From assembly GCF_001061665.1 (NCBI RefSeq), contig NZ_JVSP01000001.1, positions 35,349 to 99,348 of the forward strand: a stretch of 64,000 nt of DNA. The letters are read 5' to 3'. The DNA is from Rothia mucilaginosa (GTDB lineage: Bacteria > Actinomycetota > Actinomycetes > Actinomycetales > Micrococcaceae). The notes beneath the pieces are model-generated. The model did no database searches. It saw only the letters and a list, made by a program, of their open reading frames with translations, and was not told where the DNA came from. The position numbers and the translations under genes are program-made. Below are positions 33,467 through 37,292 of the stretch, piece by piece (the stretch's first letter is position 1; each line of letters starts with the position of its first letter).

Positions 33467-35344
33467 ATGAAGATATTCCAGACTGCCGGGCGCTCCGCGG
33501 CAGCCCGCTCCCTCATGGCATCGGCCGGTGCCCTCTCCCTCCTGGCGTCCTCTCTGACCGCAGTTCCGGAGGCCTTCGCGGCCCCCGAGGCTTCCACAAG
33601 CCCCGCGGCTACCGCCAGCGCACAGCCCGTCGATGCGAACACCTCGTACGAGAACCTCACCTACGCACCCGCCCCGGACCCCGCACAGGTTGAACGCGAC
33701 AACCCCGCCATGGGTGCCGGCGAGCGCGAACGCATGGGCACCGCTAATGCCCGCACCGGCGCAACCTCCGCCCCCACGGCAACCCTGAGTGGGCTCGCCG
33801 CGGGTAGCTCTTCAGCACAGGCGCTGGCCCTGGGCCGCTCCGCCTGGACCCCGAGCGGCGGCACCCTCGGCATGGACGTCTCCTCGCACCAGCAGAACGT
33901 GGACTGGGCAAGCGCCTGGGCGGCCGGTTCCCGATTCGCCTACGTGAAGGCCACCGAGGGCGCGTACTACACCAACCCCTACTTCGGTCAGCAGTACAGC
34001 GGCTCGGCCTCCGTCGGCATGGTGCACGGCGCCTACCACTTCGCCAACCCCCGCACTTCCTCCGGTGCCGATCAGGCCCGCTACTTCGTGCAGAATGGCG
34101 GCGCGTGGACTGCCGACGGCAAGACTCTCCCGGGCCTGCTGGACATCGAGTTCAACCCCTACCCCACCTACGGCAACACCTGCTACAACATGACCGCGGC
34201 GCAGCTGACCGCCTGGATCCGCGACTTCGTGGACACCTACCGCGCGCTGACCGGTCGCGCGCCCATGGTGTACACCGCAACCTCTTGGTGGTCCCAGTGC
34301 GTGGGCTCGCAGGAGTTCGGCTCCCTGCCGCTGCACCTGGCCAGCTACTCCACGGTCGTGGGTCGTATTCCCGCCGGCTGGAACGGTTACGACATCTGGC
34401 AGTTCACCGACTCGGGCCCGTTCGTGGGTGACTCTAACTTCTTCCCCGGCAGCGTCGAGGACCTGAAGGTTCTGGCGAAGAACCCGAAGGCTGAACACCG
34501 CAACTGGGCCAAGGACAACCAGCCGACCCAGAACCCGAACGTGGTCGTCACCCCGACCGGTTCGATTGATATTCGCACCGGCATTGGCGTGGCCTGGAAC
34601 CGTAACCGAAGCTTCTACGGCAACCCGGTCGGCGGCGAATATAGCCTGGGCTACGGCGTGTACGCCCAGAAGTTCAGCAACCGCAAGACCATCTACTGGA
34701 CGAACGCGAACGGGGCCCACTGGGTGGTGACCGACGGCGGCCTCGATCACAAGTTCCGCTCTAACGTGGCCCGCTACCGCGGCCTGACCACCGATGAGGG
34801 GGGACGCTTCCAGACCGTGGCGGTCTCTTTCGCCAACGGGGAGGGCGCCTACTGGACCGAGAGCACCGGAACCCATACGCTCAACGAGCGCGGCGGCATC
34901 TATTGGGCCTGGCGCAATTCCGGTGCCCAGGGTGCCCCCACCACGGATGAGGAGAACCTGGGCGGCGGCATCGCCAAGCAGGAGTTCTCCGGCCGTCGCA
35001 CCTTCGTGTGGAGCGCGAAGACCGGCACCCACCTTCTGCGTACCGGCGGCGCGTTCTACTACCGTTTCCTGGAGCACCGCAATGCCTGGGGCGCCCCGGC
35101 GACCGACGAGACCGCTAACTCCACGGGCGCGCAGGTGCGCTTCGCCTCCGGCAAGATGCTGCTCTGGTCGGATGCGTACGGCGCCTACGAGACCAACGGT
35201 AACGGCGCGATTTACAACCACTGGGCTCGCAACACGGCTCGTTACGGTGCGGCTCGCGGCAACGAGTCCTACGCGAACGGGGTGTACTACATGGATTTTG
35301 AGCGCGGCACAATCCGCTGGACCGCTCAGCGCGGCATCTACTAG
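33467..35344 (+). CDS. Secreted GH25 lysozyme with C-terminal LGFP repeats
   Basis: A 625-residue exported muramidase. The signal peptide covers about residues 1-38 (ALSLLASSLTAVPEAFA). After an Ala/Pro/Thr-rich linker, the GH25 domain runs from about 130 to 340. Asp137 in GMDVSSHQ and Glu228 in LLDIEF are the likely catalytic acids, with YVKATEG, GMVHGAYHF and GYDIWQFT also typical. The last 260 residues hold repeats of LGFP type (for example NRKTIYWTNANGAHWV, AYWTESTGTHTL, TFVWSAKTGTHLL and GAPATDE), thought to bind the cell wall. The start at 33467 has weak ribosome-binding sequence. A role in wall turnover or attack on competitors is plausible. Confidence 0.93.
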   Translation: MKIFQTAGRSAAARSLMASAGALSLLASSLTAVPEAFAAPEASTSPAATASAQPVDANTSYENLTYAPAPDPAQVERDNPAMGAGERERMGTANARTGATSAPTATLSGLAAGSSSAQALALGRSAWTPSGGTLGMDVSSHQQNVDWASAWAAGSRFAYVKATEGAYYTNPYFGQQYSGSASVGMVHGAYHFANPRTSSGADQARYFVQNGGAWTADGKTLPGLLDIEFNPYPTYGNTCYNMTAAQLTAWIRDFVDTYRALTGRAPMVYTATSWWSQCVGSQEFGSLPLHLASYSTVVGRIPAGWNGYDIWQFTDSGPFVGDSNFFPGSVEDLKVLAKNPKAEHRNWAKDNQPTQNPNVVVTPTGSIDIRTGIGVAWNRNRSFYGNPVGGEYSLGYGVYAQKFSNRKTIYWTNANGAHWVVTDGGLDHKFRSNVARYRGLTTDEGGRFQTVAVSFANGEGAYWTESTGTHTLNERGGIYWAWRNSGAQGAPTTDEENLGGGIAKQEFSGRRTFVWSAKTGTHLLRTGGAFYYRFLEHRNAWGAPATDETANSTGAQVRFASGKMLLWSDAYGAYETNGNGAIYNHWARNTARYGAARGNESYANGVYYMDFERGTIRWTAQRGIY

Positions 35345-35380
35345 GCCTACGCCCTAGCAAACATCACGGATATAGAGAAC

Positions 35381-35413
35381 GAGGGGCACCTTCTGCCACA
35401 GAAGGTGCCCCTC
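35381..35413. terminator. Hairpin after the lysozyme gene
   Basis: GAGGGGCACCTTCTG pairs with CAGAAGGTGCCCCTC around CCA. It is a typical terminator stem but only GTTT follows. A TATAGA box (35371-35376) just before it leaves open that it is the 5' hairpin of the downstream RNA. Confidence 0.7.
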
Positions 35414-35436
35414 GCCGTTTCCGCTCCGAGGATGCT

Positions 35437-35843
35437 AAGCCTCTGCCGAGTGTGGGCAGAAGGGTTACACACTGCCGCGAGCGGGGTGGGTTACCGAGTG
35501 AGTAGAGAAACCCGGTCATGTTACCCGTGCCGGCAGGTAAGTTTATGTCGTACCCGAGAAGGTAGTTGAGTCATCTCGCGAGGCGGGCCCTGGATTAGTG
35601 TGGCGAACGCAATCCCCCTTGACTACGTCCGTGGGGCCCACACTAACCGCTGTGAGGCCTAGTCCCAGGAGGTGTCTAGAGGGGCAGCCTGACCGGAAGT
35701 AGGACTCATGGCGAATGACGGCACGGTACGAAGATGCTGAAATTCACCCGGGATGCGGCGTTCCGGGGAAGGAACCGATATCTAGGAGGGCGGTTCCTTC
35801 ACACGCCGTGTCCCTCATTCAAGGATAGGTCGAAGGAGGGCTT
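35437..35843 (+). ncRNA. Candidate large structured RNA, about 400 nt
   Basis: No plausible gene covers this stretch, yet it is dense in long-range pairing. AAGCCTC (35437-35443) pairs with GAGGGCTT (35836-35843, one bulge) as a closing helix. GTGTG 35450-35454 pairs with 35468-35472, GGGTT 35488-35492 with 35509-35513, and TTAGTGTGG 35595-35603 with 35638-35646 enclosing CCCCC/GTGGGG. An 11-bp stem 35751-35761/35803-35813 (two wobbles) encloses the perfect 9-bp hairpin 35769-35777/35791-35799. Purine-rich joining segments on the plus strand suggest that strand is the RNA. I cannot assign a family. Size and complexity recall raiA-, GOLLD- or HEARO-class RNAs, but I cannot test that. Confidence 0.65.
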
Positions 35844-36122
35844 TCCGCCCATCATTTCGGAAAATATTACGTCTCAACCGTTGATTGAAAGTTTACCTGA
35901 TAAAAATATATTTTGAATTCTTTGGATGTCTAATAGTGCATATTTTTCGGGTGATTTACTGGAGTTTTTGAGATAATCCTCGATTATTTCAAAATAATTT
36001 TATGGATATATTACGTTTAGGTGTTTCGCACTCTCAGCGGTAACGCCGAGCTTTTCCATCCAGAAATCTCTCTTGCGGAAACCCTTGCCACAGGCTGCGG
36101 AAAGCCCGGAGCGCAACGCACA
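35844..36122. other. AT-rich spacer after the candidate RNA
   Basis: Positions about 35855-36020 are strikingly AT-rich for this genome (for example GATAAAAATATATTTTGAAT, TTTCAAAATAATTTTATGG). I see no gene. It could carry promoters, a terminator for the RNA, or be foreign DNA. Confidence 0.55.
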
Positions 36123-36195
36123 CTAGGGCGCACCCCGTGCCGTATGCACCGCGAGAAAGTACCCTTACTCCCCCGCTACACGGGATGCGCCCTAG
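36123..36195 (-). terminator. Long inverted repeat downstream of adhP
   Basis: CTAGGGCGCACCCCGT (36123-36138) pairs with ACGGGATGCGCCCTAG (36180-36195), 15 of 16 positions, with a 41-base loop. It lies 57 bases past the adhP stop and may end its transcript. Confidence 0.5.
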
Positions 36196-36251: not shown

Positions 36252-37292
36252 CTAGAGGCTAGCGAAGTCCAGAACCATACGGCCGGTAATCTTACCAGCA
36301 GTCATTTCCTCGAAGACAGCCGGTGCCTCGTCAACCTCACGCAGCTGAACCACCGGAACCACGAGGCCGTCAGCACCGAACTGGAACGCCTCCGCCAAAT
36401 CCTGACGGGTGCCCACCAGGGAACCCACCACGCGGATACCGTCCAGAACGATCTTCACAATGGACAGCTCCATCATCTCCGAAGGCAGACCAACAGCCAC
36501 CACGGAACCGCCCGCACGAACCGACTCGATAGCCTGGTTGAACGCAACCTTCGACACAGCAGTCACCACAGCAGCGTGAGCGCCGCCGCCGGTCAGCTCG
36601 CGAATACGAGCCGGAACGTCCTCAACCTCACGGCCGTTGATGACGTGATCAGCACCGACCTTACGAGCCAGAGCCAGCTTGTCGTCGTTGATGTCGACAG
36701 CGATAACCTTGGCGCCGAAGACCTTCTTAGCGTACTGAACGGCAAGGTTACCCAGACCGCCAGCGCCGTAAGCAACCAGCCACTGACCCGGGCGAACCAG
36801 CGACTCCTTGGTTGCCTTGTAGGTGGTCACACCAGCGCAGGTAATGGAGCTGGCCTGCGCCGGGTCAAGGCCCTCGGGAACCTTCACAGCGTAATCAGCG
36901 GGCACCAGGGTGTATTCGCTCATGGCGCCGTCGACGGTGTAGCCGGCGTTCTTGACCGAACGGCACAGAGTCTCACGACCCGAGGTGCAGTACTCGCAGT
37001 GGCCGCAGCCCTCGAAGAACCAAGCCACCGACACGCGGTCGCCTTCCTTCAGGGACTCAACACCCTCGCCGACCTTGACGACACGACCAACGCCCTCGTG
37101 GCCCAGAATACGGCCCGGAAGCTCACCGAAATCACCGGCAGCCACGTGCAGGTCAGTGTGGCACACGCCCGAGTATTCAATCTTCACGAGCGCCTGACCG
37201 TGACCGACGGCCGGAACGGGAACCTCACGGACAACAACCGAACCGTCAACATTCTCAGGGACAACAACAGCCTTCATGGTTTCCTTGCACAT
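36252..37292 (-). CDS. adhP: Zinc-dependent alcohol dehydrogenase (AdhP type)
   Basis: A 346-residue medium-chain dehydrogenase that interconverts ethanol-like alcohols and aldehydes with NAD(H). The catalytic zinc ligands are Cys in [10 protein letters not shown], His in GHEGVGRV and a later Cys; the structural zinc site is [15 protein letters not shown]. The nucleotide-binding loop is [14 protein letters not shown]. Two starts are possible: 37292 (AAGGAG eight bases before) and 37277 (MKAVVVPE, with its own AAGGAAACC), the latter matching the usual AdhP start. It stands alone; a tandem heptamer repeat lies 40-70 bases upstream. Oxygen- or aldehyde-dependent control is possible but not visible. 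Confidence 0.95.

Follow-up and report, generated by a model that had tools for sequence, protein, structure and literature searches.

Between adhP and a GH25-like lysozyme gene, the window (the whole stretch of 64,000 nucleotides that was analysed) carries a conserved, elaborately folded RNA. Computation supports both this fold and its encoding on the minus strand. The RNA is a new, lineage-restricted large structured bacterial non-coding RNA, assignable to no Rfam family. It is probably a standalone, clade-restricted, trans-acting RNA of about 520 nucleotides whose gene has its own promoter. The predicted gene spans 35374-35897 on the minus strand. We infer its transcription and exact ends, the start from a promoter and the end from a terminator, as well as its action in trans.

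An earlier note had proposed a large structured RNA of no known class at 35437-35843. The RNA and its lack of a known class are supported by covariation, by conservation without coding and by the lack of an Rfam match. The borders were drawn too narrowly: the unit starts near 35897 and ends near 35374.

A non-coding locus between adhP and a lysozyme gene

adhP is located at 36252-37292 on the minus strand. The lysozyme gene is on the plus strand, from about 33467 to 35344. Both names reflect sequence resemblance rather than a family search. No tRNA, Rfam family or plausible gene was found inside the interval, which the earlier note had also described as free of genes. No open reading frame of at least 25 codons is conserved across the four homologous sequences on either strand, and the indels among them are mostly not multiples of three. 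The RNA locus is non-coding, and a protein-coding reading was rejected on these two grounds.

The same neighbors flank the RNA in the window and in two other genomes, G013 and G014. In a third, G027, the lysozyme gene has decayed, with only residues 94-186 and 269-348 left (L012, about 1180-1700, equivalent to L008, 8680-9180); the RNA region is intact. In the sister species G001, adhP and a lysozyme gene converge at a distance of about 60 bases, and the RNA is missing between them.

A further conserved element lies just after adhP. This 17-bp inverted repeat with an inner hairpin (36123-36195) is kept in all four species. It is present as a single copy in the genome, apart from a 23-nt partial match, and is possibly the adhP terminator.

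Homologues and distribution

A DNA search of 35 Rothia genomes identified homologues in G014 (78% identity), G013 (77%) and G027 (75%), matching 35484-35896 of the window. No homologue of the RNA region was found by this search in the other 31 genomes. All three homologues are located at the same genomic place, between adhP and the lysozyme gene or, in G027, its fragments. A DNA search covering 295 family genomes gave, among the entries listed, matches only in G027 and the genome of the window itself; G013 and G014 are not listed there. The adhP proteins of the four RNA carriers are 95-100% identical, and the next, in G001 and G006, are 86-87% identical. The four RNA-bearing genomes have the most similar adhP, and therefore look like one clade.

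As the earlier note had suggested, a covariance model was built from the related Rothia sequences. This model, R1, has 159 positions. Over the 35 genus genomes its only convincing hits are these four loci, which score 174-198 bits. Searches of 396 genomes of the order and 396 of the phylum, with stricter filters, returned only members of the same four. Since R1 was built from four close sequences, diverged distant relatives may escape detection. Phages, plasmids and viral contigs gave no convincing match. Matches in genome contigs outside Rothia amount to isolated exact 19-mers, which the model does not support convincingly. Each genome has one copy of the RNA, in one place. One Rothia clade of four related species most likely either gained the RNA, perhaps recently, or was alone in retaining it.

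Predicted promoter and terminator

A predicted sigma-70-type promoter is located at 35903-35932 on the minus strand. It consists of TAGACA, a 16-nt spacer and TATATT (or, with 18 nt, TATTTT), and matches the consensus at 10 of 12 positions. Five promoter-like sites were found on the two strands together, compared to 0.2 expected in shuffles. In the homologues, TTGAC[AG], 18 nt and CATACT occupy the same alignment columns as the window's promoter. The form TTGACA-18-CATACT is present in G013, and was found on the RNA strand of the homologue locus L003.

The earlier note had correctly described the adjacent DNA as AT-rich: GC content is 25-36% at 35850-36049. Judging by its motifs, this DNA beside the interval is the RNA's own promoter region. 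The conserved AT-rich region upstream of the RNA spans 35898-36020 (minus strand), with ACGTAATATA at its far edge. Two repeats are found here. An inverted repeat, TTTTGAGATAATC/GATTATTTCAAAA (35966-35994), lies upstream of the RNA promoter and is kept within the conserved region. Its arms changed together in the homologues, for example to GAATAT/ATATTC in G013, and it may serve as a site for a regulator or belong to a longer transcript. In addition, a direct repeat around ACGTAATAT (35855-35872 and 35999-36016) places its copies 144 bases apart, on either side of the AT-rich promoter region; it is largely kept in the homologues.

At the other end, a terminator-like hairpin is located at 35374-35419 on the minus strand, helix 19 of the consensus structure. 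It is formed by a 16-bp perfect inverted repeat followed by UUCUCU (UUUU[CU] in G013 and G014). The hairpin is symmetric and has a T-rich tract on either side. It can therefore act in both directions and, as a bidirectional terminator, probably ends the plus-strand lysozyme gene as well. A strict terminator scan did not report the hairpin in the window and accepted it in L003 alone, there in the direction of the lysozyme gene.

Conserved fold

Averaging the base-pair probabilities of the single sequences with those of the alignment gave a consensus structure of 151 pairs, in which 95.2% of cells are paired over the four sequences. Fourteen pairs changed on both sides, compared to a shuffle mean of 4.4, and the covariation score is 0.173, compared to 0.113 in shuffles. 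On each of five measures, all 500 shuffles fell below the observed value. When the partners were slid, 40-44% of cells were paired; this control is inflated because the structure was derived from the same sequences. Compensatory changes exceed chance in the four sequences, as expected for a structured non-coding RNA. Three of the four are 84-90% identical to each other, and the two-sided changes therefore come mostly from one branch. Single-sequence folding of the minus strand gave z-scores of -2.6 for the window and -5.3, -3.7 and -4.5 for the homologues.

The structure begins with a 5' hairpin, UUCAAYC/GGUUGAR (35869-35892, helix 1), which is 100% paired. Its core varies only between U-G and either C-G or U-A, as read on the minus strand. 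A central domain is closed by a long-range helix (helices 2 and 3), with its 5' side at 35846-35862 and its 3' side at 35528-35543. This helix has one two-sided change, G-C to U-A, in G027, and is poor in the window, with 9 of 16 pairs. Inside the domain, the hairpin GAAGG...CCUUC (35766-35802, helix 6) has an invariant C-rich apical segment, CCUCCUAGAUAU, which is anti-Shine-Dalgarno-like. The hairpin GGUGAAU...AUUCRCC (35710-35748, helix 8) keeps 12 pairs in all four sequences, and its loop CUUCGUACC is invariant. It is followed by an irregular stem, UGAG.CC.../...GG.CUCA (35653-35708, helix 9, 94.7% paired), and by a 22-bp two-part hairpin (35593-35648, helices 10 and 11). The upper helix of the latter has one two-sided change and three pairs that are G-U on the minus strand (A.C on the plus).

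Outside the long-range helix, the hairpin GGGU...ACCC encloses CCGRG...CUCGG (35484-35526, helices 14 and 15), with an invariant loop, UUCUCUACUCACU. The 3' domain is a stem with an inner helix (35422-35483, helices 16 and 17). Here GCUAC/GUAGC is found against CGCUC/GAGCG, amounting to four two-sided changes. All these elements are on the minus strand. Support is strongest for the 5' hairpin, 35710-35748, 35593-35648, 35484-35526 and the 3' stem.

Strand of the RNA

The strand has to be settled by wobble patterns, not by folding energy. The four sequences, taken on the RNA strand, were aligned with MAFFT and folded in both orientations. Seventy-seven pairs were predicted from both strands, and thus favor neither. 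On the minus-strand reading, their departures from Watson-Crick pairing are nine G-U and no A-C. When G-U was forbidden in folding, the wobble count was 12 to 0 for the minus strand, and in single-sequence folds it was 19 to 4. In the window's stem CGGACATAGTC/GACTATGTCCG, three A-C mismatches on the plus strand are G-U on the minus. There are only a few such wobble events, most of them on the branch of the window, but they point consistently the same way.

The earlier note had placed the RNA on the plus strand, where it would continue from the lysozyme gene or start just after it. The plus strand does fold with a lower absolute energy than the minus, but this is because it is G-rich, with more G than C. 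The strand-neutral wobbles, all G-U on the minus strand, read as A-C on the plus in 9 of 9 and 12 of 12 cases. In addition, the lysozyme terminator (35380-35414) precedes the RNA and leaves almost no room for a plus-strand promoter, and the conserved promoter faces the opposite way. We consider a plus-strand RNA very unlikely.

The helices proposed for the plus strand also mostly disappear in the homologues. The minimum-energy fold of 35437-35843 on that strand (-166.8 kcal/mol, z -1.6) was equalled by 5 of 100 shuffles, so that this interval alone folds only weakly better than chance. Many of the helices lose at least half their pairs. Of the 9 pairs proposed for the stem 35449-35457/35636-35644, the other three species retain 2. 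The helix thought to join the two ends (AAGCC/GGCUU) keeps 2 to 4 of 5 pairs, losing half or more in two of the three homologues. Among helices of at least 4 bp, only these are largely kept: the hairpin at 35768-35800, part of 35649-35712 and, in the stem at 35592-35615, its lower portion. The 35768-35800 hairpin and the lower portion of the long hairpin persist since both are genuine minus-strand helices. Most of the helices listed in the earlier note are unsupported.

Alternative explanations

Two further readings would deny the minus-strand RNA a role of its own. The hairpins might belong to the DNA itself, as a mobile-element relic or an origin-like region. The inverted and direct repeats of the AT-rich flank and the lack of the element in the sister species would fit such a reading. 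However, DNA hairpins would not give the strand-wise wobble asymmetry, which is an RNA signature; the element is confined to one copy in one place, and searches of phages, plasmids and viral contigs returned no convincing match. This reading has very little probability. Hardly more probable is a 3' UTR or antisense element that would act solely for adhP or the lysozyme gene. The RNA does lie between both genes and on the adhP strand, but it has its own conserved promoter, the separate conserved hairpin at 36123-36195 may be the adhP terminator, and the RNA is intact in G027, where the lysozyme gene has decayed.

The ways in which a standalone RNA would act are more evenly balanced. In one reading it would be a structural or ribonucleoprotein RNA in the manner of ModT, OLE or ROOL, a scaffold that binds protein or self-assembles without pairing to mRNA. 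Its conserved loops would then bind protein or other parts of the RNA. The invariance of paired and unpaired segments alike, the multi-branched domain with its long-range helix, and two invariant loops without conserved complementary sites all suggest this. In contrast, a C-rich loop is typical of mRNA-pairing RNAs, the scaffold would have no known partner gene, and no covariance-model match links it to families of the ModT, OLE or ROOL type. We regard the scaffold reading as possible, at clearly less than an even chance. By analogy, a scaffold role (ModT, PMC11706538; OLE, PMC12286853) and an anti-Shine-Dalgarno role appear about equally likely.

Proposed mechanism

In the reading that we prefer, a standalone trans-acting RNA, transcription would proceed on the minus strand from the RNA's own promoter (35932-35903), starting near 35897. 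The transcript of about 520 nt would form a multi-branched domain closed by the long-range helix, followed by the 3' domain. It would end at a terminator common, back to back, with the convergent lysozyme gene. The invariant CCUCCUAGAUAU loop, held out by a rigid scaffold, would be offered to the Shine-Dalgarno sequences of mRNAs. Staphylococcus aureus RNAIII works through C-rich loops on Shine-Dalgarno sequences (PMC2837412). By analogy to it, regulation through pairing of CCUCCUAGAUAU with Shine-Dalgarno sequences is a tentative proposal, which we would not put at even chances. In the consensus structure CCUCCUAGAUAU is invariant and mostly unpaired, with two weak pairs inside (helix 7), giving an accessible anti-Shine-Dalgarno loop like that of RNAIII.

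Few 10-nt matches to the complement of CCUCCUAGAUAU are found in the four genomes. A search for the complement ATCTAGGAGG identified, in all four, the Shine-Dalgarno sequence of a five-codon leader ORF (MTHRA) before ABC-F-like genes. The predicted duplex with this leader has an energy of -20.7 to -21.8 kcal/mol, a range that the best among 94 ORF starts of the window also reach. The ABC-F leader is therefore a lead, not evidence. Complements of the two other invariant loops gave nothing conserved in the four genomes, at or near control level.

The ABC-F leaders deserve description in their own right. Two tandem ABC-F-like genes (L052 and L056) are located at about 36.2 and 38.35 kb of contig C14 of G000, with counterparts (L049, L053, L054, L055 and L059) in G013, G014 and G027. 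Ahead of each gene lies a leader of about 150 nt that is highly conserved. The leader ORF, behind ATCTAGGAGG, consists of the five codons ATG ACC CAC CGA GCA TAA, and the L056 leader contains a terminator-like segment ending in GCGCTCGGGTTTTT. The leaders have no Rfam match. Judged by these motifs, the leader looks like an antibiotic-sensing attenuator.

Significance

Few large structured RNAs of bacteria lack a known family, and most of these owe their discovery to a wide distribution. The Rothia RNA is narrowly distributed, perhaps a recent gain, and belongs to human-associated bacteria. Since a sister species lacks it at the same place, its origin and function are testable by simple deletion and comparison. 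A bolder reading falls somewhat short of an even chance: a large multi-domain structured RNA of a new class, restricted to a single oral Rothia clade, with its own promoter, acting as a scaffold or global regulator, and gained recently, so that the ancestral empty site is maybe visible in the sister species.

Comparison with known RNAs

All 4227 Rfam families were searched with cmscan, at the gathering score and then at E-values up to 5. The window has no match at the gathering score. At E-values up to 5, the window and two homologues gave only chance microRNA matches on the terminator hairpin. This Rfam-wide search had been suggested by the earlier note, and it found no family for the interval or the two homologues. 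The classes named there as candidates, raiA, GOLLD, HEARO and OLE, are all in Rfam, and none matches at an E-value of 5. OLE, GOLLD, ROOL, raiA and HEARO were thus rejected by lack of a covariance-model match. For a HEARO or IscB-type guide RNA, an adjacent endonuclease gene is also missing, the neighbors being adhP and the lysozyme gene in the window, G013 and G014. For GOLLD and ROOL, there is no phage or prophage context, and the RNA occupies the same chromosomal place in four species. It resembles raiA, GOLLD, HEARO and OLE only in its length, standalone nature and elaborate fold. Among open-licence papers on Rothia non-coding RNAs, none describes it; a metatranscriptome paper on R. dentocariosa gives other non-coding RNAs, none recognisably that of this locus.

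ROOL RNAs are linked to phages or prophages, and RNAIII also encodes a peptide. Like GOLLD, ROOL and OLE (PMC12286853), the Rothia RNA is large and multi-branched. GOLLD is phage or prophage linked (PMC12286853); unlike GOLLD and ROOL, the Rothia RNA is a single chromosomal locus between metabolic genes. Like the HEARO or IscB-IsrB-associated RNA (PMC12286853), it is structured and several hundred nucleotides long; unlike HEARO, it has neither an adjacent endonuclease gene nor an Rfam match. The raiA motif or ModT family, known in Bacillota and Actinomycetota (PMC11706538), is also standalone and highly structured. However, the raiA motif RNA that was studied is 205 nt (PMC12286853) and the motif occurs in more than 2,500 species, whereas the Rothia RNA is about 520 nt, occurs in four species and matches no Rfam family. 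S. aureus RNAIII is 514 nt long and has a conserved C-rich hairpin loop that complements Shine-Dalgarno sequences (PMC2837412). The Rothia RNA is similar in length and has a conserved C-rich hairpin loop, a likeness for which we claim no homology; unlike RNAIII, it contains no conserved reading frame.
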